A DNA stretch of 64,000 nt. Origin: Modestobacter altitudinis. Its GTDB lineage: Bacteria > Actinomycetota > Actinomycetes > Mycobacteriales > Geodermatophilaceae. The position numbers were made by a program, and so were the translations under genes. The stretch lies in contig NZ_SJEW01000016.1 of the NCBI RefSeq assembly GCF_005930475.1, forward strand, positions 1 to 64,000. The letters run 5' to 3'. Of this stretch, positions 4,428-61,380 are shown one piece after another. Below the pieces are notes generated by a model. The model did no database searches. It was not told the DNA's origin and saw only the letters and a program-made list of their open reading frames with translations. Position 1 is the first letter of the stretch. The number at the start of each line of letters is the position of its first letter.

Positions 4428-4560
4428 GCGTGGCTCACGAGAGGCAGCGACAAGCACCTGGCTGGCTGCCCGGCAACCTCAACTCCGTCTGAGGTGCTCC
4501 AGGGGAAGAGCTGGCCGGACAGCACCCGCCGCCCGGCAAGGACGGAGCCCTCCGCGCTGT
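4428..4560 (+). ncRNA. SAM-IV riboswitch
   Basis: The leader carries the SAM-IV landmarks in order: GGCTCACGAGAGGCAGCGAC (about 4432-4451), the CTGGCTGGCTGCCCGGCAACC core (4458-4478), the GGTGCTCCAGGGGAAGAG segment (4493-4510) and a downstream CCGCCCGGCAAG (4528-4539) that can form the pseudoknot element. SAM-IV aptamers are known upstream of sulfur-metabolism genes in Actinomycetales. Here it precedes metY, so high S-adenosylmethionine should shut down homocysteine synthesis. The expression platform may mask the AGGAGGTG Shine-Dalgarno at about 4578-4585. Confidence 0.87.
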
Positions 4561-18126: not shown

Positions 18127-18147
18127 CGGGCACTCCTGGCGTCGACG

Positions 18148-18232
18148 GGGGCCCAGGCGCGCGGCGGTCGACGGAGCCGCTCCCCGGTGGTGGTCCACCT
18201 GTCAGCGCCAGTCACGGCCCACGGCGAGGATA
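18148..18232 (-). ncRNA. ZTP (pfl) riboswitch upstream of glyA
   Basis: Read on the - strand, the leader contains the pfl-motif landmarks: GGGCCGTGACTGGCG (about 18219-18205), ACAGGTGGACCACCACCGGG (about 18202-18183), GGAGCG, and after a short linker the pseudoknot partner CGCGCCTGGGC (about 18161-18151). A -10-like TATCCT at 18232-18227 starts just before it. ZTP riboswitches turn on folate and purine one-carbon genes when 10-formyl-THF runs short, which fits glyA. Confidence 0.87.
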
Positions 18233-42215: not shown

Positions 42216-42818
42216 ATGAGCCGCACGACGTGCCACGTGACGATCTCGCTGGACGGCCACCTCGCCGGACCGCAGCAGAGCCGGGCGGACCCGCTGGGCG
42301 TGGGCGGCGAGCGCCTGCACGAGTGGATGTTCGCCGACGAGCCCCGGCCCGCGGCCGACGAGGCCGCCCGCGCCGACCTGCTGCGACCCCGCGGCGCCTT
42401 CGTGATGGGCCGCAACATGTTCGGCCCGGTCCGCGGCGGGTGGGACGAGGACTGGCGCGGCTGGTGGGGCGACGAGCCGCCGTACCACGCACCGGTGTTC
42501 GTCCTCACCCACCACCCGCGGGACCCGGTCGAGATGGCCGGCGGGACGACGTTCCACTTCGTGACCGCGGGGTTCGACGCGGCGATGGAGCAGGCGCGAG
42601 CCGCGGCCGGCGACGCCGACGTGACCATCGCCGGCGGCGCGTCCACGATCCGGCAGGCACTGGCGGCGGGAGCTCTGCACGAGCTGGTCCTCGATGTCGC
42701 GCCCGTCCTGCTGGGCGGCGGGGAGCGCCTGTTCGACGGCGTCGCCGACCCCGGGCTCACGCAGCTGGGGGTCACCTCCTCACCGCGAGTGACGCACGTC
42801 CACTACCGCGTGGGCTGA
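42216..42818 (+). CDS. Dihydrofolate-reductase-like (RibD C-terminal) protein
   Basis: A 200-residue RibD_C/DHFR-fold NADPH reductase. Motifs: VTISLDGHLAGPQQS (8-22), GAFVMGRNMFGPVRGGW, VFVLTHHPRDPVEMAGGTTFHFV and the nucleotide loop DVTIAGGASTIRQAL, then ELVLDVAPVLLGGGERLF. Such lone proteins are not the housekeeping DHFR; substrates are unknown. Its last 16 bases overlap the end of mftF on the opposite strand. Confidence 0.87.
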   Translation: MSRTTCHVTISLDGHLAGPQQSRADPLGVGGERLHEWMFADEPRPAADEAARADLLRPRGAFVMGRNMFGPVRGGWDEDWRGWWGDEPPYHAPVFVLTHHPRDPVEMAGGTTFHFVTAGFDAAMEQARAAAGDADVTIAGGASTIRQALAAGALHELVLDVAPVLLGGGERLFDGVADPGLTQLGVTSSPRVTHVHYRVG

Positions 42819-44248
42819 CGCGGCGGGCTGACCGGCGGCGGCGCGGCGGGCAGCAGCGCCCGGGGGTCCCGGGCGCGCAGCGCGCCGAGCCACAGCCCGG
42901 CACCGTAGGCGAGGTCCTCCAGGCGCCGTCCCGCGGCGAAGGTGGGCAGGTCGATCTCCTGGCGGAGCGGCCGCCAGCCGCTGACCGCGTCGGCGACGGC
43001 CACCCCGGCGACCAGCCACCGGGCCCGCCGGGACACCAGTGCCGCCGCCGCGGCGAGCGGCCAGTGGTGCCGGGTGACCGACCGGGCCAGGGTGCGGCCG
43101 GATGCCGCCGTGCCGCGCAGCACCAGCCCGGCCGCCAGCCGTACGGGCGGCCGGTCGCCGGGGGCGGCGAGCCGACCGGCCAGCTGCCACGAGGCCCGGC
43201 CCAGCACCCCACCGGCGGCGAGCACGCCCACCGGCGTCCCGGTCAGCGCCAGCGCCCAGGCCGCGGCCGACCACGGCGAGATCACCACCGGAGCGACCGC
43301 CGCGCCGTGCCGCTGGGCCAGCAGCGCCGCCCCGGTGCCGTAGAACGCCCGGCGGCGCAGCCACGCGGCCGGTTCCACCCGGTGGTCGTGCGCCACCCGA
43401 GCCGACGGTTCCAAGCGCACCCGCCAGCCGGCGCCGGCCAGCCGCCACACCAGGTCGACGTCCTCGGCGACCGGCATCGTCTCGTCGAAGCCACCTCGCA
43501 GTGCCGCCCGCCGGGCCAGCAGCGCGGCACTGGGCACGTAGGAGACCGTCGTCAGCGGGGCGACCCGGGCCGGCGTCGTCCCCATGTCCAGAGCGCTGCT
43601 CAGCGACTCGTACCGGGCCACCCAGCCGCTCGCGCCGGCCGGCAGGGCGGTGATCCGGGGGGCGACCAGCGCCACCCGGGGGTCGCTGAGGTGCCCGGCC
43701 AGCACCTCCAGCCAGCCGGGCTCCGGCACGCAGTCGGAGTCGACGAAGGCGACCAGCTCGGTGCCGGCGACCCGCAGCCCGGCGTTGCGGGCGGCCGCCG
43801 GACCGCGGGCGACCGGGTGCCGCAGCAGCCGGGCACCGGCGGCGACCGCCGCGACCGCGGCAGGGTCCGCCGAGCCGTCGTCCACCACGACCACCGGGCA
43901 GCCCGCCGTCCCGGGGTCGGCGCGCAGCGCGGCCAGCAGTCGGGCCAGCCCGTCGGTGCGGTCCCTGACCGGGACGACCACGGTCACCTCGGGGAACGGC
44001 GCCGGCGGCAGCTCCGGGTCGGCGACGCCGGTGTCGAGCAGCCGCGCGGCCAGCGCCGCGGTGCGGGCGTCGGTCACCTCGAGCCGGTCGCCGGCCAGCA
44101 GGGCCTGGGCCGCCGGCGCCAGCCGCAGCATCCGGAACGGTGACCCGCCGAGCAGCGTCGTCCCGCCGTCCCGGCACTGGGTCCCCGGTGCCAGCCGGAC
44201 GGCGAACCCGTCCGGCAGCCGGTCCGGGGGCGGGGCGGGGACGGTCAT
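42803..44248 (-). CDS. mftF: Mycofactocin glycosyltransferase MftF
   Basis: A 481-residue family 2 glycosyltransferase. The first 85 residues (LPDGFAVRLAPGTQCRDGGTTLLGGSPFRMLRLAP) are the N-terminal signature of MftF. The catalytic domain shows VTVVVPVRDR, VVVVDDGSADP and the metal motif AFVDSDCVPEPGW, and later AEDVDLVWRL. The C-terminal 150 residues hold hydrophobic helices. MftF adds beta-1,4-glucose units to premycofactocin. Here it is detached from the other mft genes and follows an isochorismatase-like gene with a four-base overlap. Confidence 0.92.
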   Translation of the reverse strand: MTVPAPPPDRLPDGFAVRLAPGTQCRDGGTTLLGGSPFRMLRLAPAAQALLAGDRLEVTDARTAALAARLLDTGVADPELPPAPFPEVTVVVPVRDRTDGLARLLAALRADPGTAGCPVVVVDDGSADPAAVAAVAAGARLLRHPVARGPAAARNAGLRVAGTELVAFVDSDCVPEPGWLEVLAGHLSDPRVALVAPRITALPAGASGWVARYESLSSALDMGTTPARVAPLTTVSYVPSAALLARRAALRGGFDETMPVAEDVDLVWRLAGAGWRVRLEPSARVAHDHRVEPAAWLRRRAFYGTGAALLAQRHGAAVAPVVISPWSAAAWALALTGTPVGVLAAGGVLGRASWQLAGRLAAPGDRPPVRLAAGLVLRGTAASGRTLARSVTRHHWPLAAAAALVSRRARWLVAGVAVADAVSGWRPLRQEIDLPTFAAGRRLEDLAYGAGLWLGALRARDPRALLPAAPPPVSPPRQPTR

Positions 44249-48582: not shown

Positions 48583-48664
48583 CCGACCCGAGGAGCACGC
48601 CGCCGTCTCCCCGCCCACGGTGCCCGCCGCCCGACCACCGCACCCATCCCGACCAGGAGCCCTC

Positions 48665-49660
48665 ATGTCCTCCCGACCCGCACTCCGCGGCGCCGCTCTG
48701 CTGGCCCTCGCCCTCGCCGTCACCAGCTGCAGTTCCGACTCCGGGGACGACCCCGCCGAGGGCAGCAGCGCCGGCAGCAGCTCCACCGGCGCCTTCCCGG
48801 TCACCATCGGCACCGCCTTCGGCGACGTCAGCGTCGAGGAGGAGCCCACCCGCGTGGTCGCCCTCGGCTGGGGCGACGCCGAGACCGCGCTCGCGCTCGG
48901 CGTGCAGCCGGTCGGCGCCAGCGACTGGCTGCAGTTCGGCGGTGAGGGCGTCGGCCCCTGGGCCGCCGGGGAGTACGACGAGGCGCCCGAGATCATCGAC
49001 AGCCTGGAGCCGAGCTACGAGGCGATCGCGGCGCTCCAGCCGGACCTGATCCTGGACACCAAGTCGCCGGCCACCCAGGACCGGTACGACAAGCTCAGCG
49101 CGATCGCCCCGACCGTCAGCCAGCCCGAGGGCGCGGACCCCTACCTGACCTCCTCGGCCGACCAGCTGCAGATGATCGGCGAGGCACTCGGGAAGAGCGA
49201 CGAGGCGACCGCGCTGCAGCAGCAGGTCGACCAGGCCTTCACCGACGCGGCCGCGGCCAACCCGGAGTTCGCCGGCACCTCGGTGGCCGTGGCCGCCTAC
49301 AGCGCCGAGGGCTTCGGCGCCTACGTGGAGGGCGACGCCCGGGTCGACTTCATGGAGCAGCTCGGCTTCGCGCTGAAGCCGGAGATCCAGGCCCTGGCCA
49401 CCGACAGCTTCTTCGTCTCGGTGAGCGAGGAGCAGCTGCCGCTGCTCGACGCCGGGCTGACCGTCGCGTTCCCGATCTTCGTCGACGCCGGACAGATCAC
49501 CGGCAACCCGCTGTGGCAGGCCATCCCGTCGGTGCAGGCCGGGCATGCGGTCGTCCTGGAGGACGAGACGCTGACCAGCGCCTTCTCGATCGGCACGCCG
49601 CAGGGCATCCAGTACGCCCTGGACAACGCCGTCCCGCTGTTCGCCGACGCGCTCAGCTGA
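48665..49660 (+). CDS. Iron-siderophore substrate-binding lipoprotein
   Basis: A 331-residue class III binding protein. The lipoprotein signal (LLALALAVTSC, lipobox V-T-S-C, Cys about 22) is followed by a Ser/Gly linker. The FecB-type domain shows PTRVVALGWGDAETALALGVQPVGAS, EAIAALQPDLILD, YDKLSAIAPTV and FSIGTPQGIQYALDN. It binds ferric siderophore or heme for an ABC importer, but no permease or ATPase is adjacent, so it is an orphan component. The iron box upstream supports the role. It overlaps the end of mftE on the other strand by eight bases. Confidence 0.92.
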   Translation: MSSRPALRGAALLALALAVTSCSSDSGDDPAEGSSAGSSSTGAFPVTIGTAFGDVSVEEEPTRVVALGWGDAETALALGVQPVGASDWLQFGGEGVGPWAAGEYDEAPEIIDSLEPSYEAIAALQPDLILDTKSPATQDRYDKLSAIAPTVSQPEGADPYLTSSADQLQMIGEALGKSDEATALQQQVDQAFTDAAAANPEFAGTSVAVAAYSAEGFGAYVEGDARVDFMEQLGFALKPEIQALATDSFFVSVSEEQLPLLDAGLTVAFPIFVDAGQITGNPLWQAIPSVQAGHAVVLEDETLTSAFSIGTPQGIQYALDNAVPLFADALS

Positions 49661-50366
49661 CCCGCGCGACGCCGCCGGGGAGCAGCCGACCGGCGGCGTC
49701 GACGTCCCAGCGGGTGGCCGCGGCGATCAGCCGGGCCCGGAGGTCGGCCAGCAGCTCGGCCCCCTCCGCCGCCGAGGCACCGGTCGGGTCCCCGAGGACG
49801 CCGTCCGGGCTCACCGCCCGCACCCCCTCGGCACGCAGCCGGGGCAGCAGCTCGCTGATCGGCGCCGTCTCCCCCGTCGCGGCCAGCGTCGTGCGCACCG
49901 CCCCGGGTTGCACGTGCAACATCAGCGACGTCTCGGTCCGCCCGGCGTGCGCGTCCCCGCCGGGCGCGCCGCACGGGAACCAGGCGACGTCCCGGCCCTC
50001 GGCCCGGAGCAGCGGCACCGCCGTCCGGAGCGCGTCGAGGTTGCCGCCGTGCCCGTTGACCACCAGCAGCCGGCCGGCCCAGCGCCCCGCCGAGCGGCCG
50101 TACTCCACCAGCAGCGCACCGAGCGCCTCGGTGCCGATCGAGATCGTGCCGGGGAAGCCCTCGTGCTCCCCGCTGGCGCCGTAGGCCAGCGCCGGGGCGA
50201 GCAGTGCACCGGTCAGCCGGGGGACGACGCCCTCCGCGACGGCCTGCGCCACGACCGTGTCGGTCGCCATCGGCAGGTGCCGGCCGTGCTGCTCCACCGA
50301 CCCCAACGGGACGACGACCAGCGGCGCGCCCGTGGCCTCGGGCCAGGTGGCGTCGGTCAACCTCAC
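49653..50366 (-). CDS. mftE: Mycofactocin peptidase MftE (creatininase family)
   Basis: A 237-residue creatininase-fold metallopeptidase from GTG 50366. Metal motifs are GSVEQHGRHLPMATD (about 22-36), NGHGGNLDALRTA and the HAGRTETSLML Glu. MftE cuts the MftC-modified MftA to release the Val-Tyr dipeptide (AHDP). It is 26 bases downstream of a GGDEF-EAL gene on the same strand, hence likely co-transcribed with it, not with mftABC. A long upstream in-frame extension is shadow of the GGDEF-EAL gene. Confidence 0.92.
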   Translation of the reverse strand: MRLTDATWPEATGAPLVVVPLGSVEQHGRHLPMATDTVVAQAVAEGVVPRLTGALLAPALAYGASGEHEGFPGTISIGTEALGALLVEYGRSAGRWAGRLLVVNGHGGNLDALRTAVPLLRAEGRDVAWFPCGAPGGDAHAGRTETSLMLHVQPGAVRTTLAATGETAPISELLPRLRAEGVRAVSPDGVLGDPTGASAAEGAELLADLRARLIAAATRWDVDAAGRLLPGGVARVS

Positions 50367-50392
50367 GACCGCGACCCTGCCAGACCCGGGCG

Positions 50393-52228
50393 TCACACCC
50401 GGGTGGGGACTCCCGACAGGTCGGCGTCGGGCCGGCAGTGCTCGGCAGGCTGCGGTCGGGCGAAGAGGTAGCCCTGCGCCGAGCCGCAGTGCAGGTCGGC
50501 CAGCGCCTGCCGCTGACCCTCGGTCTCGACGCCCTCCGCGACGACCCCGAGGCCCAGGCTGCGGGCCAGCTCCACCATCGAGGCGATCAGGGTGGTCGAC
50601 GACCCGCCGGTGGCGAGGTCGGTGACGAAGCTGCGGTCGATCTTGATGATGTCCGCCGGCAGCCGGCGGAGGTAGGAGAGCCCGGCGAAGCCCGTGCCGA
50701 AGTCGTCGATGGCGATCAGCACCCCCAGGTCCCGCAGCTGCTGCAGCCGGCCGACCACCGCATCGACGTCGTGGACCAGGATGCCCTCGGTCACCTCGAG
50801 GGTGAGCTGCTCGGCGGGGAACCCCGAGTCCAGCAGCGCCGCGGTCACGTCGGCGACCACCTCGCTGTCCATCAGCTGCCGGGGCGAGAGGTTGACCGCC
50901 ATCCGGAGCGGCTGGTGCGTCTCCGCGGTCCAGGCCGCCCCCTGCCGCAGGGCCTGCTGCAGCACCCAGCGCCCGATCCCGGAGATGGTCCCGGTGTCCT
51001 CGGCGAGCGGGATGAACTCCGCCGGCGGGATCATGCCCCGGTCCGGGTGGTGCCAGCGGACCAGCGCCTCGAAGCCCGTCGTCCGGCCGTCGCTGAGCCG
51101 CACGGTCGGCTGGTAGTAGACCTCGAGCTGCCCGGCCAGGACGGCGAGCGGGAGGTCCTGCAGCAGCCCGGCGCGCCGGCTGGCCGCCTCGGCCATGCCG
51201 TCGGAGTAGGCCACCAGCTGGTCGCCGCCCTGCGCCTTCGCCAGGTACATGGCCAGGTCGGCGTCGCGGAGCAGGGAGTCCGCGGTGTGCTCGCCCGGGT
51301 CGGCCGAGGTCGCCAGCCCGATGCTGGCGTGCACGGTGGCAAGACCGGCGTCCAGCTGCACCGGGAGCGCGAGGGCGTTGCGGACCCGCTCGCCGACGGC
51401 CCGGGCGGTCTTCGGGTCGGCGGTGAGCAGCACGGCGAACTCGTCGCCGCCGATCCGGGCGACCAGGTCGCCCGGGCGGACGCTGCGCTGGAACCGTTCG
51501 GCGACGGCCAGCAGGACCTGGTCGCCCGCCGCGTGCCCGCGGCTGTCGTTGACGTCCTTGAAGCCGTCGAGGTCGATGAAGAGCAGGCTCAGCGGGGCGC
51601 CCTCCCGCAGCAGGCGCTGGGTGCGCTCCTCGAGCTGGGTGCGGTTGGCGACCCCGGTCAGCGCGTCGTTGAGCACCTGGTCCTCGTTCAGCCGCCACGC
51701 CGCGAGGTGCGCCAGGCTGGCCGCGAGGACGAAGACGGCGTGGATGCCAGCCCACAGCCACGGGTCGTGTTGGCCACCGTGCCCGAAGACCGCGTGCGGG
51801 TACAGCGTGCCGACGACGCCATGGTGCAGGGTGACGACGACCAGCGCGATGCCGAAGGGCACCCAGTGCTGGTACAGCGAGACGACGCCGACCATCACGA
51901 AGAAGGCGAAGTGGGCCTCGGTGACCCCGCTCCACAGGTGCACGAGGGCGACCGAGGCGGCCATCAGGCTCAGCGTGGTCGCCGAGGACCGGGTGGACCG
52001 GCCGAAGGAGGGCGTCACCGCCACCAGCAGCGGACCCCCGACCGCTGCCAGCACCGTGACGGCGGCGAGCTGGCTCTCGCCCCAGGCCCAGCACAGCACG
52101 ACCAGGACCAGCGCCGACAGCATCGCCAGTCGCACGATCATCTGGTGCCGCCGCTGCCAGACCGCTCCGGGCAGGAGCCGGCCCTGCGGCAGCAGCGCAA
52201 CGAGCCGGGCACAGACTCTGGTGATCAC
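50393..52228 (-). CDS. Membrane GGDEF-EAL diguanylate cyclase/phosphodiesterase
   Basis: A 611-residue protein from GTG 52228. About five to six membrane helices (30-165) form a sensor, then a GGDEF domain with intact RIGGDEFAVLL and the I-site RPGD five residues before it (product inhibition), then an EAL domain with EALVRWHHPD, NLSPRQL, EVTEGIL, IDDFGTGFAGLSYLRRLPADIIKIDRSF and VAEGVET. Both catalytic sites look active, so it could make and destroy c-di-GMP. It heads a transcript that continues into mftE. The promoter region is shared with mftD and carries the candidate MftR palindrome. Confidence 0.93.
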   Translation of the reverse strand: MITRVCARLVALLPQGRLLPGAVWQRRHQMIVRLAMLSALVLVVLCWAWGESQLAAVTVLAAVGGPLLVAVTPSFGRSTRSSATTLSLMAASVALVHLWSGVTEAHFAFFVMVGVVSLYQHWVPFGIALVVVTLHHGVVGTLYPHAVFGHGGQHDPWLWAGIHAVFVLAASLAHLAAWRLNEDQVLNDALTGVANRTQLEERTQRLLREGAPLSLLFIDLDGFKDVNDSRGHAAGDQVLLAVAERFQRSVRPGDLVARIGGDEFAVLLTADPKTARAVGERVRNALALPVQLDAGLATVHASIGLATSADPGEHTADSLLRDADLAMYLAKAQGGDQLVAYSDGMAEAASRRAGLLQDLPLAVLAGQLEVYYQPTVRLSDGRTTGFEALVRWHHPDRGMIPPAEFIPLAEDTGTISGIGRWVLQQALRQGAAWTAETHQPLRMAVNLSPRQLMDSEVVADVTAALLDSGFPAEQLTLEVTEGILVHDVDAVVGRLQQLRDLGVLIAIDDFGTGFAGLSYLRRLPADIIKIDRSFVTDLATGGSSTTLIASMVELARSLGLGVVAEGVETEGQRQALADLHCGSAQGYLFARPQPAEHCRPDADLSGVPTRV

Positions 52229-52333
52229 CGCTCCGTGATCGACACGCCCCGGCGGGCGCTTGAGCAGCGGCGAGCCGGTACCCACCCCTGGGAGGGATCG
52301 ACAGGATCATGACCTGCGCCTCGTCGCGGTAGC

Positions 52334-52350
52334 GTGGCACTCAGTGCCAG
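52334..52350. promoter_or_regulatory. Candidate MftR operator before mftD and GGDEF-EAL
   Basis: GTGGCAC-TCA-GTGCCAG is a near-perfect 17-base palindrome. It lies 115 bases before mftD and 105 before the divergent GGDEF-EAL-mftE transcript. It matches the palindrome in the mftA promoter (60480-60496) at 15 of 17 positions, and the flank GCGTCGG is shared too. Confidence 0.65.
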
Positions 52351-52465: not shown

Positions 52466-53689
52466 ATGGCCAACCCGTGGTTCGAGTCAGTGGCGGAAGC
52501 ACAGCGTCGGGCGAAGAAGCGCCTGCCCAAGGGCGTCTACGGCGCGCTGGTGGCCGGCTCCGAGCGCGGCGTCACCGTCGACGACAACACCGCCGCCTTC
52601 GCCGAGCTCGGCTTCGCCCCGCACACTGCCGGGCTGGCCAACGACAAGCAGATGGCCGTCCGGGTCATGGGCCAGGACATCTCGATGCCCGTGCTGATCA
52701 GCCCCACCGGCGTGCAGGCCGTGCACCCCGACGGAGAGGTCGCCGTCGCCCGGGCCGCCGCCGCCCGCGGCACCGCCATGGGGCTGTCGTCCATGGCGAG
52801 CAAGCCGATGGAGGAGGTCATCGCGGCCAACCCGCAGACCTTCTTCCAGCTGTACTGGGTCGGCGATCGCGACGTGATGGCCGCCAAGGTCGAGCGGGCC
52901 CGCAAGGCCGGGGCGGCCGGGCTCATCGCCACCCTGGACTGGTCGTTCGCCTACGGCCGCGACTGGGGCAGCCCGTTCATCCCGGAGAAGGTCAACTTCG
53001 AGGCGGTGCGCCGGTACGCCCCGCAGGTGGCCCTCAAGCCGCGGTGGCTGTGGACCTTCGCCAGGACCGGCAAGCTGCCCGACCTGACCGTGCCGAACAT
53101 GGTGGGCGTCCCCGGCGAACCGGCGCCGACGTTCTTCGGTGCCTACGGCCAGTGGATGCAGTCGCCGATGCCGAGCTGGGAGGACGTCGCCTGGCTGCGC
53201 GAGCTGTGGCCCGACGCGCCGTTCATGCTCAAGGGCGTCATGCGGGTCGACGACGCCCGCCGCGCCGTCGACGCCGGGGTCACCGCGATCTCGGTCTCCA
53301 ACCACGGCGGCAACAACCTCGACGGCACGCCGGCCTCCATCCGGGCCCTCCCGGCCGTGGCCGAGGCCGTCGGCGACCAGGTCGAGGTGCTGCTCGACGG
53401 CGGCATCCGCCGCGGCAGCGACGTCGCCAAGGCCCTGGCCCTGGGCGCCAAGGCGGTCATGATCGGCCGCGCCTACCTGTGGGGCCTCGCGGCCAACGGC
53501 CAGCCCGGGGTGGAGAACGTCCTCGACCTGCTGCGCGACGGGCTCGGCTCCGCGCTGATCGGGCTGGGCCACACCTCGATCGACCAGCTGAACCCCGGCG
53601 ACCTGGTCATCCCGCCGGGCTTCGAACGCCACCTGGGCACCCCCGGCCCCGACGCCCCCGTGGGCAACCCCGCGTCCGGCCAGGCCTGA
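52466..53689 (+). CDS. mftD: Premycofactocin synthase MftD
   Basis: A 407-residue FMN-dependent alpha-hydroxy-acid oxidase-fold enzyme that turns AHDP into premycofactocin by oxidative deamination. Markers: WFESVAEAQRRAKKRLPKGVYGALVAGSERGVT at the start, LISPTGVQAVHPDGE, FQLYWVGDRD, the catalytic His280 in ISVSNHGGNNLDG and the phosphate motif LLDGGIRRGSDVAKALALGAKAVMIGRAYLWGL. These match MftD rather than lactate oxidase. ATG 52466 has GGAGCAG upstream. It is alone on the + strand inside the locus. Confidence 0.93.
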   Translation: MANPWFESVAEAQRRAKKRLPKGVYGALVAGSERGVTVDDNTAAFAELGFAPHTAGLANDKQMAVRVMGQDISMPVLISPTGVQAVHPDGEVAVARAAAARGTAMGLSSMASKPMEEVIAANPQTFFQLYWVGDRDVMAAKVERARKAGAAGLIATLDWSFAYGRDWGSPFIPEKVNFEAVRRYAPQVALKPRWLWTFARTGKLPDLTVPNMVGVPGEPAPTFFGAYGQWMQSPMPSWEDVAWLRELWPDAPFMLKGVMRVDDARRAVDAGVTAISVSNHGGNNLDGTPASIRALPAVAEAVGDQVEVLLDGGIRRGSDVAKALALGAKAVMIGRAYLWGLAANGQPGVENVLDLLRDGLGSALIGLGHTSIDQLNPGDLVIPPGFERHLGTPGPDAPVGNPASGQA

Positions 53690-53779: not shown

Positions 53780-54712
53780 TCAGTCGGCGAAGACGGCGGT
53801 GAGGGCGGCGGCGACGTCGCGGTGGTCGCGGACCAGGCGCAGCCGCCCCCGCCCTGCCCGGGCCAGGTCGCGGCCGAGCTCGACATCGTCCTCCCCCGAG
53901 GTGTCCAGCAGCACGTCGAGCCGGGGCAGCCGGGCGGCGGTGAGCCGCGGGTCGGGCCCGGCGTTGTGCACGCAGTCGGACAGCAGCAGCACCCGCGCGT
54001 CCCGCGGCGGCACCCCGGCGAGCTGCCGGGCCGCCGTCTCCAGCGCGAAGGTCACGTTGGTCAGCCCCTGGGTCGGCACCCGCAGCAGCAGGTCGAGCAC
54101 GGCCAGCGGGGCCACCTGCTCCCCCATCGGCACCAGCACCGCCGCGTCGGACCAGAAGGCGACGACGGCCAGCCGGTCGCGGGCGAGCTCACCGGCCAGC
54201 GCGCCCACCGTGGCCGCCGCCGTCTGCACCCGTTCGCCCTTCATCGACCCGGACACGTCGACCACCAGGACCACCGACCGCCGCTGCCGGACCCGCTCCC
54301 GGACGACGATGTCGGTCTCCTCGGGGTAGGGGTCGCCGGCGATCACCTCCAGGGTCCGCTCCAGGTCCAGCTCGTCGGACCCCCCGCTCCACGGCGTGCT
54401 GACCAGCTCACCGACCCCGCGCCGGGACCGCCGGTCGCGGGCCGGCCGCGGCACCGCCAGCCGGCGGGCGATCTGCCGCGCCCGGGCCCGCGTGAGCTGG
54501 TCGACGGCGTTCTCGGTGGCCAGGTCGGCGAGCGGGATCAGGTCGGCCGGCTCGTCCGTCGTCCCGGACGCCGTGCTCCCCGGCCGGGACGGACCGGTCC
54601 GGTCCCGCCGCCGGTCACCCGACGACAGCGCCAGCCCACCCCCGCCGCGGGACGGCTCGTAGAGCGACGGCTGCTCGGTGAGCTGCTTGGGCCGGCGCCG
54701 CAACGGCCGCAT
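53780..54712 (-). CDS. VWA-domain protein paired with a MoxR ATPase (CoxE-like)
   Basis: A 310-residue protein. The first 100 residues are charged and low-complexity; a VWA domain follows with an intact MIDAS, VVDVSGSMKGER (about 148-159), TNVTFALETAA and LLLSDCVHNAG. The pair MoxR-VWA acts in chaperoning metal-cofactor insertion or protein remodelling. No signal peptide or membrane helix, so cytosolic. It is 66 bases after the MoxR gene, which lies on the same strand. Confidence 0.87.
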   Translation of the reverse strand: MRPLRRRPKQLTEQPSLYEPSRGGGGLALSSGDRRRDRTGPSRPGSTASGTTDEPADLIPLADLATENAVDQLTRARARQIARRLAVPRPARDRRSRRGVGELVSTPWSGGSDELDLERTLEVIAGDPYPEETDIVVRERVRQRRSVVLVVDVSGSMKGERVQTAAATVGALAGELARDRLAVVAFWSDAAVLVPMGEQVAPLAVLDLLLRVPTQGLTNVTFALETAARQLAGVPPRDARVLLLSDCVHNAGPDPRLTAARLPRLDVLLDTSGEDDVELGRDLARAGRGRLRLVRDHRDVAAALTAVFAD

Positions 54713-54778
54713 GCCCCGGGCGCGGGCCGCGCCCGGACGGTCCCGCCGGGTGACCGGCGAGTCTGCTTCGACGGCTCT

Positions 54779-55675
54779 TCAACCAGGCGCGGCCGCGGCC
54801 GGCTGGAGCAGGAAGTGGTCCTCCCAGATCTCCCGGAGCACCGTCTCGGGCGTGCTCTCCAACGTCTCGTCGAGGAAGATCCGCCCGGACAGCGCGAGCA
54901 GGACGGCGTCCAGCACGACGTCGGTGTACTCCTCCGGCAGCCCGCGGGGCGGCGCGACCGACGGCTCGTCGGGCAGTGGCACCCCGCGCATCGCGGCCAG
55001 CTGGGCGGCGACCAGCGCGGTGTCGATGGCGCCGCGGACGCTGCTGCCCTGCCGGACGTCGTCGCGCTCGCGGGTCGCCCGGGTCAGCGCCACGGCGTCG
55101 GCGACCAGCCGGGGCGACTCGACGCCGGTGCGCCGGCCGACGATCCCGCGCTCGGCCTCGGCGTCCTGGTAGCCGATCGCCAGCCGGCACAACCGGTCGT
55201 GCACCGAGGTCGACAACCGCGTCGTCCCGACGTTGTCGAAGGGGTTCATCGAGGCGATCACCCGGAAGCTGGGCAGCGCCTCGACCACGCCCACCCGGGG
55301 GATGGTGATCCGCCGCTCGGCCATCGCGGTGAGCAGGGTGTTCAGGGTGTCCTCCGGCGCCCGGTTGAACTCCTCGACGTAGAGGAAGCCGCCGGCGCGC
55401 ATCGCCTCGACCAGCGGGCCGGGCACGAAGTTGTCCGGCGAGTAGTCCTCCCGCAGCACCCGGGCCGGGTCGTGGTGCCCGACCAGCCGGGTGGGCGTGA
55501 GATCGGCGTTGCCCTCGACGAAGACCAGCGGGATGCCCCACTCCGCGGTGATCGAGCGCAGCAGCGTGGACTTGGAGGTGCCCGGCGGCCCCTCGAGCAG
55601 GACGTCGCGGCCGGCGGCGACCGCGGCCAGCAGCAGGTCCAGCTCGCGGGCCCGCCCCACCAGGTGCCGCGCCAC
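54779..55675 (-). CDS. MoxR-family AAA+ ATPase
   Basis: A 298-residue ATPase from GTG 55675. Walker A is LLEGPPGTSKSTLLRS (25-40), Walker B with the MoxR wording GGFLYVEEFNRAPEDTLNTLLTAMAERRITIP, and sensor 1 VIASMNPFDNVGTTRLSTSVHDRL. The frame stays open upstream to TGA about 55790, and reads sensible protein (NEHISHSAGDDPLVTGS); a CTG at 55777 preceded by GAGAGGA could be a start giving 332 residues. The P-x-G-T-S-K-S-T Walker A and CoxD-like length suggest the CoxD/CoxE pair. It lies 190 bases after the SDR genes, same strand. Confidence 0.88.
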   Translation of the reverse strand: MARHLVGRARELDLLLAAVAAGRDVLLEGPPGTSKSTLLRSITAEWGIPLVFVEGNADLTPTRLVGHHDPARVLREDYSPDNFVPGPLVEAMRAGGFLYVEEFNRAPEDTLNTLLTAMAERRITIPRVGVVEALPSFRVIASMNPFDNVGTTRLSTSVHDRLCRLAIGYQDAEAERGIVGRRTGVESPRLVADAVALTRATRERDDVRQGSSVRGAIDTALVAAQLAAMRGVPLPDEPSVAPPRGLPEEYTDVVLDAVLLALSGRIFLDETLESTPETVLREIWEDHFLLQPAAAAPG

Positions 55676-58744: not shown

Positions 58745-59971
58745 TCAGCTCAGCGGCAGCCCGGCCAGCGGGGACTCGTCGCACAACTTGGCCGGGATGC
58801 TCGGCAGCCCGAGCATCGTCGGCTGGCCGCGGACCGGGCCCTTGTGCGAGTGGTCGAGGTGGCTGCGGGGTGTGACGAGCTCCAGGTCGCGGGCGGCCAG
58901 CGCGGTCTCGCCGTAGCCCTGCACGCACTCCGGGTCCGGGCCGTCCAGCGGCAGGCCGGTGAAGAACTTCGCCGCCATGCAGCCACCGCGGCAGGCGTCG
59001 AAGTGCGCGCACTTGGTGCAGGCCCCGCCGGTCTGGGGGTTGCGCAGGTCGGCGAACAGCTCGCTGTGCTGCCACACCTGTTGGAAACCGCCCGGGGAGC
59101 GCACGTTGCCGGCCAGGAACTGCTCGTGGATGGCGAACGGGCAGGCGTAGACGTCACCGACCGGGTCGATCAGGCAGACCACCCGGCCCGCGCCGCACAG
59201 GTTCAGCCCGGGCAGGGCCTCGCCGAGGGCGGACAGGTGGAAGAACGAGTCGCCGGTGAGCACCTGGTCGCCGTTGGCCAGCAGCCAGGAGTACAGGTCC
59301 CGCTGCTGGGCCTGGGTGGGGTGCAGCCGGTCCCAGACGTCGGCGCCGCGGCCCGACGGGCGGAAGCGGGTGATCCGCAGCTGTGCGCCGTAGCGGTCGG
59401 TGAGCGCCTTGAACTCATCCAGTTGCCCGGCGTTCTCCCGGGTGACCACGACGGAGACCTTGAAGTCCTTCATCCCGGCCTCGGCCAGGTTCTCCAGCGC
59501 CCGGGTGGCGGTGGCGAACGAGCCGGTGCCGCGGACGGCGTCGTTGACCTCGGCGGTGGCGCCGTCCAGGGAGATCTGCACGTCGACGTAGTCGGTGCGG
59601 GCCAGCTGCTGGGCGCGGGCTGCGTCCAGCTTGATCCCGTTGGTGGAGAACTTGACCCCGACGTCGTGGCCGATGGCGTAGTCCAGCAGGTGCCAGAAGT
59701 CCGGGCGCACGGTCGGCTCACCGCCGCCGACGTTGACGTAGAACACCTGCATCCGCTGCAGCTCGTCGATCACCGCCTCGGCCTCGGCGGTGGACAGCTC
59801 CCGCGGGTCCCGCCGTCCCGACGAGGACAGGCAGTGCACGCAGGCCAGGTTGCAGGCGTAGGTGAGCTCCCAGGTCAGGCAGATCGGCGCGTCCAGGCCG
59901 TACTCGAACTGGTCGATCAGCTTCCCGCCCGCGGGGCGCTCGGCAGGGCGGGAGGGCAGGACGGCGGTCAC
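58745..59971 (-). CDS. mftC: Radical SAM maturase MftC
   Basis: A 408-residue radical SAM/SPASM enzyme that decarboxylates the C-terminal Tyr of MftA and forms the Val-Tyr ring. The radical SAM cluster is CNLACVHC (Cys40, 44, 47), with VNVGGGEPTVRPDF the GGE motif. The SPASM region has auxiliary cysteines in LNLCGAGRVVCLIDPVGDVYACPF and GGACTKCAHFDACRGGCMAA. The N-terminal GLDAPICLTWELTYACN wording matches MftC. It overlaps mftB by four bases. The last 25 residues (TMLGLPSIPAKLCDES) are a family feature. Confidence 0.96.
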   Translation of the reverse strand: MTAVLPSRPAERPAGGKLIDQFEYGLDAPICLTWELTYACNLACVHCLSSSGRRDPRELSTAEAEAVIDELQRMQVFYVNVGGGEPTVRPDFWHLLDYAIGHDVGVKFSTNGIKLDAARAQQLARTDYVDVQISLDGATAEVNDAVRGTGSFATATRALENLAEAGMKDFKVSVVVTRENAGQLDEFKALTDRYGAQLRITRFRPSGRGADVWDRLHPTQAQQRDLYSWLLANGDQVLTGDSFFHLSALGEALPGLNLCGAGRVVCLIDPVGDVYACPFAIHEQFLAGNVRSPGGFQQVWQHSELFADLRNPQTGGACTKCAHFDACRGGCMAAKFFTGLPLDGPDPECVQGYGETALAARDLELVTPRSHLDHSHKGPVRGQPTMLGLPSIPAKLCDESPLAGLPLS

Positions 59972-60264
59972 GCGGACTCCTCGGGACGGCGTTCGATCAT
60001 CTGCGAGCGGGCGAGCGTGGCCAGCGCGGTGACGTAGGCCCGGTGCTGCCCCTCGGGCACCTCGCAGGCGGCCAGGGTGCTCGGCACGTCGGGGTGCGCC
60101 TCGAGAGCGGTCACCACCGCGACCAGCGGCTTCGACTTCAGGAACGACAGCTTCCGGTTCCCGAAGTGGTAGACGAGCGCGCCGAAGGGCTCCGGCCGCA
60201 GCGCCACCGACGGCGACTTCCGCCAGGGCACGGCGGGGTCGAAGGGCACGGCCGTGTCGGTCAC
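59968..60264 (-). CDS. mftB: Mycofactocin precursor chaperone MftB
   Basis: A 98-residue RiPP-recognition-element (PqqD-like) protein that binds the MftA leader for MftC. The core PWRKSPSVALRPEPFGALVYHFGNRKLSFLKSKPLVAVVTALEAHPDV is typical of MftB. GTG 60264 is taken as start; GTG 60327 is in frame, overlaps mftA and would add 21 Pro/Gly-rich residues. It overlaps mftC by four bases. Order A-B-C is as in other mft loci. Confidence 0.93.
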   Translation of the reverse strand: MTDTAVPFDPAVPWRKSPSVALRPEPFGALVYHFGNRKLSFLKSKPLVAVVTALEAHPDVPSTLAACEVPEGQHRAYVTALATLARSQMIERRPEESA

Positions 60265-60311: not shown

Positions 60312-60431
60312 TCAGTACACCCCGCACATGCCGTCGATGGAGACCTCCTCGACCAGGGAGTCCTCGACGAGCACCTCCTCGGCGGCGGCCGGGGTCTCGG
60401 TGCGGGTCTCGTCCTGCGTCGTCTCGGGCAC
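60312..60431 (-). CDS. mftA: Mycofactocin precursor peptide MftA
   Basis: A 39-residue precursor that ends in the invariant SIDGMCGVY, whose last Val-Tyr becomes mycofactocin. The acidic leader (PETTQDETRTE ... EEVLVEDSLVEEV) binds MftB. GTG 60431 is preceded by CCGGAGGCATC; a GTG at 60458 would add nine residues but has no ribosome site. It is short enough to be missed by length cut-offs. It heads the mftABC operon. Confidence 0.96.
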   Translation of the reverse strand: MPETTQDETRTETPAAAEEVLVEDSLVEEVSIDGMCGVY

Positions 60432-60472: not shown

Positions 60473-60503
60473 GACGCTAGTGACACCGAGTGCCACCGGC
60501 AAG
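60473..60503 (-). promoter_or_regulatory. mftA promoter with candidate MftR operator in the spacer
   Basis: On the - strand TTGCCG (about 60502-60497), exactly 17 bases GTGGCAC-TCG-GTGTCAC (60496-60480), then TAGCGT (60479-60474). The spacer is the palindrome, so a bound TetR dimer would block polymerase. The palindrome matches the one at 52334-52350. Confidence 0.65.
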
Positions 60504-60774: not shown

Positions 60775-61380
60775 ATGACCCAGACCGTGGTCCGCCCCGA
60801 CGCGCGCGAGGACACCCGCGCCCGGATCGAGCAGGCCGCCCTGGACCTCTTCACCGCCCAGGGCTTCGAGCAGGTGACGATCGACGAGATCGCCGAGGCC
60901 GCCGGCATCAGCCGGCGCACGTTCTTCCGCTACGTGAGCGCGAAGGCCGACGCGGTGTGGGGTGACTTCGACGCCCACGTCGTCCGCCTCGAGGCGATGC
61001 TCGCTGCCACGGTGGACGACCAGCCGGTGCTGGCCTCGATCTGCGCGGCCTACGTGGAGGTCAACGACTACGCGCACGCCGACCTGCCGATGTTGCGGCA
61101 GCGGATGCGGCTGATCCTCACCGAGCCGGCGCTGCAGGCGCACTCCCAGGTGCGGTACGCCGCCGTCGACCGGGTCGTCGCCGCGCACGTCGCCCGGCGG
61201 ACGGGGGTGACCCCCGACGCGCTCGTCCCCCGGCTGGTCGCCGTCAGCACCCGCGCGGCGGCGACGACGGCGTTCGAGGTCTGGCTCGCCGACGGGCGAG
61301 GCTGGCTGGGCACGGTGCTGCACCAGGCCTTCGACGAGCTGGCCGCCGGCTTCCCGTCCCTGCGGGCCCTGCCGGTATGA
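60775..61380 (+). CDS. mftR: Mycofactocin-system TetR regulator MftR
   Basis: A 201-residue TetR repressor. HTH: RIEQAALDLFTAQGFEQVTIDEIAEAAGISRRTFFRYVSAKADAVWGDFDAH (about 17-68); the FFRYV..KADAVWGDFD wording is that of MftR. MftR in mycobacteria represses mft genes until long-chain acyl-CoA binds. The C-terminal domain ends AFEVWLADGRGWLGTVLHQAFDELAAG. It is divergent from mftA with the palindrome between, nearer mftA. Confidence 0.92.
   Translation: MTQTVVRPDAREDTRARIEQAALDLFTAQGFEQVTIDEIAEAAGISRRTFFRYVSAKADAVWGDFDAHVVRLEAMLAATVDDQPVLASICAAYVEVNDYAHADLPMLRQRMRLILTEPALQAHSQVRYAAVDRVVAAHVARRTGVTPDALVPRLVAVSTRAAATTAFEVWLADGRGWLGTVLHQAFDELAAGFPSLRALPV

Follow-up and report, generated by a model that had tools for sequence, protein, structure and literature searches.

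Our analysis of a 64,000-nucleotide (nt) stretch of the Modestobacter altitudinis genome (contig NZ_SJEW01000016.1, positions 1 to 64,000, hereafter the window) revealed a gene encoding a GGDEF-EAL enzyme of cyclic di-GMP (c-di-GMP) turnover within the mycofactocin (mft) gene cluster. We consider it likely that this gene is a member of a flagellar/WhiG-type sigma factor regulon that settled durably among the mft genes; it is not a proven part of mycofactocin control. A preliminary description of the same DNA had assigned the gene to the regulon of the mycofactocin regulator MftR and regarded a coupling between c-di-GMP and mycofactocin as undescribed. The latter view agreed with our search of the open-licence literature (subscription papers lay outside it), which returned no link of mycofactocin to GGDEF proteins or diguanylate; the sole paper in which the terms mycofactocin and c-di-GMP both appear, one time each, deals with prophages. 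If true, the association described here would be the first genomic connection to be reported between c-di-GMP signaling and the mycofactocin cofactor.

From left to right, the cluster comprises mftF (−), mftE (−), the GGDEF-EAL gene (−), mftD (+), genes for a VWA protein (−) and a MoxR-type ATPase (−), three mycofactocin-type short-chain dehydrogenases/reductases (SDRs; −), mftC (−), mftB (−), mftA (−), and mftR (+). The individual genes were delimited as follows.

42803 to 44248, minus strand: mftF (TIGR03965, 494 bits)
49653 to 50366, minus strand: mftE (TIGR03964, 330 bits against a cutoff of 172), with a GTG start at 50364 to 50366
50393 to 52228, minus strand: GGDEF-EAL gene, 611 amino acids (Pfam/NCBIfam, alignment of 19 orthologues, structural model)
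52466 to 53689, plus strand: mftD (TIGR03966, 683 bits), divergent from the GGDEF-EAL gene
58745 to 59971, minus strand: mftC (TIGR03962, 652 bits)
59968 to 60240, minus strand: mftB (TIGR03967, 110 bits), start approximate
60312 to 60431, minus strand: mftA, with the C terminus IDGMCGVY
60775 to 61380, plus strand: mftR (TIGR03968, 244 bits)

Judged from its domains and residues, the enzyme is predicted to be a membrane-anchored, bifunctional diguanylate cyclase and phosphodiesterase. The GGDEF and EAL domains scored 132.6 and 248 bits in Pfam, respectively. In an alignment of 19 orthologues, the metal- and substrate-binding residues D219, N227, and D236 and the GDEF residues of the GGDEF motif (positions 260 to 264) were invariant, as was the EAL catalytic set E387, N446, E478, D508, D509, K529, E565, and Q585. 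An RxxD I-site lies five residues ahead of GGDEF (RPGD-LVARI-GGDEF), and both motifs were invariant in these 19 orthologues and in further ones. Between orthologue pairs, the ratio of nonsynonymous to synonymous substitution rates (dN/dS) was 0.13 to 0.26, which argues that the enzyme is under selection and, together with the intact conserved residues, ruled out a degenerate protein. The preliminary description of two intact active sites, an I-site, and a membrane protein was thus well founded. Six helices are predicted to precede the GGDEF and EAL domains, although the model of this membrane part is of low confidence. The domain is rich in histidine, with H28, H106, H135, H136, H163, H174, and E104 nearly invariant in the two clades of the enzyme described below, and its sequence (residues 1 to 185) matched nothing in Pfam, NCBIfam, or solved structures. 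In this respect the enzyme differs from the solved membrane GGDEF-EAL proteins (the motility regulator 4rnh/4rnf, MucR, and DosP), with which it shares the domain order and catalytic residues; of the solved chains, the motility regulator is the nearest (E value of 4e-92 across residues 186 to 597). The genome contained about 30 GGDEF matches, and c-di-GMP signaling in this strain is therefore extensive.

To place the gene in a wider context, we catalogued mftE and the enzyme's close relatives across 115 Geodermatophilaceae genomes. Matches of at least 67% identity were present in 31 of them. In 28 the gene lay ahead of mftE in the same orientation at a distance of 0.03 to 4.1 kb, in one it stood beside mftC instead, and the remaining two copies were on short contigs (3.7 and 7.2 kb) that yielded no mft gene. 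All 29 orthologues that could be judged, many from Blastococcus and some from Modestobacter, were located within the mft cluster, and the linked orthologues formed one clade with a support of 100/100. This ruled out chance adjacency. Copies of 64% identity or less were separate from this clade, and none of those in the 115 genomes was found linked to mft genes. Collectively, these data revealed a clade-wide, stable association that is real and predates the window strain, and it is most plausibly explained by one event specific to this lineage, with later losses. In support of losses, a truncated remnant was found in Modestobacter sp. DSM 44400 (L128), and a frameshift or stop interrupted the gene in three further assemblies (L096, L097, and L085).

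The association did not extend to mycofactocin loci in general. Only 28 of the 101 mft-bearing genomes of the family carried the gene upstream of mftE, most mft-bearing relatives lacked it, and no GGDEF-EAL gene occurred within about 10 kb of any of 53 mft loci outside the family, one of which had a lone GGDEF gene approximately 8 kb away. A general mycofactocin partner was ruled out by the 53 loci, and the gene is not present wherever the pathway is, as a mycofactocin biosynthesis gene would be. Moreover, a stable position alone is no proof of a functional tie, because a gene for an iron-type periplasmic binding protein (48620 to 49657 in the window) is kept beside mftE at least as widely, in nearly all Blastococcus and Modestobacter loci. 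The nearest named relatives of the window mftC were those of Geodermatophilaceae bacterium URHA0031 and Modestobacter excelsi.

Two other arrangements were observed during this survey. Four Klenkia genomes (L142, L148, L149, and L157) carried a different GGDEF-EAL gene, of approximately 44% identity, 4.6 to 7.6 kb beyond mftR. In 8 of about 18 genomes (L190, L191, L194, L197, L199, L200, L206, and L208), a large radical-SAM gene was found one to three genes away from the unlinked sister GGDEF-EAL gene; on inspection, this radical-SAM gene reads like fbiC, encoding the FO synthase of cofactor F420, and would represent another redox-cofactor neighbor.

In 21 genomes of Blastococcus, the gene is the next one after mftC, with a gap of 39 to 117 bp, and hence directly follows mftABC, whose promoter holds an MftR operator. 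By this layout it would belong to the mftABC unit; G+C-rich hairpins and a promoter of its own lie in between. In the window strain, mftD is inverted and stands between the GGDEF-EAL gene and mftABC, which by layout places the gene outside the mftABC transcription unit. Comparison of the mftC-to-GGDEF-EAL gaps revealed the motif CTC[CA]AG-N15-G[CT]CGAT approximately 9 nt before the start codon. The corresponding element of the window is as follows.

52238 to 52264, minus strand: predicted flagellar-sigma-type promoter (−35 CTCAAG at 52259 to 52264, N15, −10 GTCGAT at 52238 to 52243)

Only 9 nt separate the −10 sequence from the GTG start of the gene, and the transcript is therefore probably leaderless. 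With up to two mismatches and at 8 to 10 nt before the start, CTCMAG-N15-GYCGAW was present in 26 of the 29 linked orthologues, as opposed to 0.0003 in dinucleotide shuffles; with up to three mismatches, it was present in 16 of 20 unlinked relatives (0.005 in shuffles). Since the motif is kept in linked and unlinked copies alike, the promoter arrived together with the gene. We took the flagellar consensus from a published study (PMC8325347), in which the flagellar/WhiG −10 sequence is GCCGATAA, and from the flbD promoters of this family: in 22 of 24 genomes of the family, a CTCAAG-N15-GCCGAW sequence with no more than one mismatch preceded flbD. In the window genome, exact CTCAAG-N15-GCCGAT sequences precede flbD, an EAL gene, a GAF-SpoIIE gene, and a gene identified as cheB on inspection of its sequence. 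The same genome encodes a FliA/WhiG sigma factor (TIGR02479, 282 bits), a second sigma factor beside flagellin, and flagellin, FliM, and FlbD. The promoter of the GGDEF-EAL gene thus resembles those of flagellar genes in its lineage, with fixed spacing and position, in a genome that has such a sigma factor and flagella, and its sequence points to motility control. The same published study (PMC8325347) reported RsiG, the c-di-GMP-dependent anti-sigma factor of WhiG, for Geodermatophilaceae (16 of 16) and proposed that WhiG controls dgc/pde genes, with feedback, in Rubrobacter. As in the RsiG-(c-di-GMP)-WhiG regulon of Streptomyces and Rubrobacter, a flagellar-type promoter precedes a c-di-GMP enzyme gene in a family for which RsiG is reported; unlike there, the gene sits in a mycofactocin cluster and the −35 sequence is CTCMAG, and the RsiG part of the comparison is drawn by analogy.

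A conserved inverted repeat of the CTCACCC-N4-GGGTGAG type was also observed approximately 45 to 75 nt upstream of GGDEF-EAL starts (e.g., in L206, L199, and L171). In both clades this repeat precedes the flagellar-type promoter, although the window copy is degenerate, and it may be the operator of some regulator.

The preliminary description had placed an MftR site in the promoter of the GGDEF-EAL gene. The operator core mapped in Mycobacterium smegmatis is T-N2-GGCA-N5-TGCC-N2-A (PMC8728441), and a search for it showed exactly two perfect operators in the whole window genome.

52335 to 52349, strand not assigned: MftR operator TGGCACTCAGTGCCA, matching the M. smegmatis core (PMC8728441), in the mftD/GGDEF-EAL intergenic region and directly downstream of the −10-like TAGCGT of mftD
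60481 to 60495, minus strand: MftR operator TGGCACTCGGTGTCA, between the −35 and −10 sequences of mftA

A perfect operator is therefore indeed present in the intergenic region; by conservation and position, however, it is the operator of mftD. In almost every family genome examined, sites resembling TGGCACTCRGTGCCA were seen at both genes, at mftD just behind a −10-like TAGC and at mftA in the stretch that separates −35 from −10. The operator stays with mftD where the GGDEF-EAL gene is absent, as in two Modestobacter genomes (M. excelsi and G088), or elsewhere, as in Blastococcus, where mftD lies away from the GGDEF-EAL gene. The 52335 site lies 106 bp upstream of the GGDEF-EAL start and approximately 70 bp upstream of its −35 sequence, and it abuts the −10 sequence of mftD without overlapping the promoter of the GGDEF-EAL gene. 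Such a distance is unusual for the blocking of a promoter by a TetR-type repressor. The MftR site was therefore rejected as an operator of the GGDEF-EAL gene by position and conservation, and with it the proposed membership in the MftR regulon through this site. Gene neighborhood alone can thus point to the wrong regulator. As in M. smegmatis (PMC8728441), mftR is divergent from mftABC and a GGCA-N5-TGCC core is located at mftA; unlike there, a second operator serves a separate mftD, and GGDEF-EAL, SDR, MoxR, and VWA genes are present in addition. Our data define a predicted flagellar-type promoter and a two-site MftR operon plan for the Geodermatophilaceae.

The reported position of the gene 26 bases upstream of mftE on one strand was confirmed in the window, where 50367 to 50392 separate the GGDEF-EAL stop (50393) from the mftE GTG. 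This adjacency, however, was specific to the strain. The two genes are separated, in a sister genome and in most others, by a PNPOx-like gene on the opposite strand, divergent from mftE, and sometimes by a YchJ-like gene as well (both named by sequence inspection); these intervening genes ruled out a conserved operon with mftE. The preliminary description had held that a lack of linkage in close relatives would speak against it: linkage to the mft cluster was retained in 29 genomes, and the 26-bp adjacency to mftE was not. Comparison with the sister genome identified the following junction.

50383 to 50390, strand not applicable: deletion junction with 8 bp of microhomology

Approximately 515 bp, with the divergent PNPOx-family gene, were lost in the window strain, and the sequence comparison identifies the adjacency as a product of this deletion. 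No more than 24 bp of the native sequence ahead of mftE survived, and mftE in this strain therefore probably relies on transcripts that enter from the GGDEF-EAL gene and its promoter.

In the interpretation that we favor, the ancestor of the Blastococcus and Modestobacter copies would have gained the gene within the mft cluster, in most cases immediately after mftC; the gene was then kept there or lost and was not seen elsewhere. A FliA/WhiG-family sigma factor would transcribe the gene when motile cells form, and the enzyme would alter c-di-GMP, in whichever net direction, upon a signal presumed to act at the histidine-rich membrane domain. The nucleotide could then act back on the same sigma factor through RsiG, which reads c-di-GMP and restrains the sigma factor. 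Blastococcus might gain some additional expression of the gene by read-through from the MftR-controlled mftABC promoter. In the window strain, the inverted mftD cuts the gene off from mftABC, and the deletion has put mftE 26 bp behind it, probably under the GGDEF-EAL promoter. Functional coupling to mycofactocin by either route is possible but unproven. Several points weigh against this interpretation. The −35 sequence in Blastococcus is mostly CTCCAG and not the CTCAAG of flbD, the −10 sequence of the window is GTCGAT and not GCCGAT, and many of the genome's CTCCAG-type matches seem to fall in coding sequence. The genome has two candidate sigma factors, either of which might act, and RsiG is attributed to the window strain by analogy from the family-level report. 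Finally, the conserved position could also reflect selection for co-expression with the mft genes.

The model of the preliminary description, in which the enzyme is a functional MftR-regulon member that couples the c-di-GMP level to mycofactocin redox metabolism, appears improbable to us. It would account for one of the only two perfect operators lying in the shared intergenic region, for the Blastococcus gene lying downstream of an operator-bearing promoter, and for the position kept across the clade. The operator, however, remains beside mftD in G087 and G088, which lack the gene, and in Blastococcus, and it is distant from the gene's own −35 sequence; most mft-bearing relatives manage without the gene, and G114, a genome that gave no mftE match, encodes a close relative of the enzyme. 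A broader version, in which the enzyme integrates the flagellar sigma factor (at its own promoter) with MftR-controlled mftABC read-through in Blastococcus and Modestobacter, so that c-di-GMP and motility are co-regulated with mycofactocin-dependent alcohol and fatty-acid redox metabolism and the window mftE is captured by a motility promoter, is doubtful, if slightly less so. The chances are somewhat below even that the gene entered the cluster on a single occasion and is held there by inertia of gene order, with regulation wholly its own and no mycofactocin tie. This differs from our favored interpretation, with which it overlaps, solely in denying any read-through or tie. It is consistent with a promoter conserved inside and outside the cluster, with an equally stable binding-protein gene that has no known mft role, and with the frequent loss of the gene; yet all judgeable copies of the clade remained in the cluster despite inserted modules and the mftD inversion around them. 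We give an even chance to coupling in the reverse direction in the window strain, where loss of the PNPOx gene would have set mftE under the flagellar-type promoter, so that mycofactocin maturation would follow motility signaling. The short native upstream sequence and the same-strand 26-bp gap favor this possibility, which is compatible with our preferred interpretation of a sigma-controlled gene lodged in the cluster; it concerns one genome only, however, a promoter may lie within the 3′-terminal part of the GGDEF-EAL reading frame, and mftE may not limit mycofactocin production. Control by the sigma factor, c-di-GMP, and MftR becomes testable in named culturable strains, e.g., Blastococcus saxobsidens and B. 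aggregatus.

Other features of the window deserve mention. The genes for the MoxR-type AAA ATPase and the VWA protein (53783 to 55675) form a pair amid the mycofactocin SDR genes, and the arrangement recurs in Klenkia and other Modestobacter. Two riboswitches were also present, SAM-IV at 4433 to 4548 on the plus strand and ZMP/ZTP at 18144 to 18225 on the minus strand.

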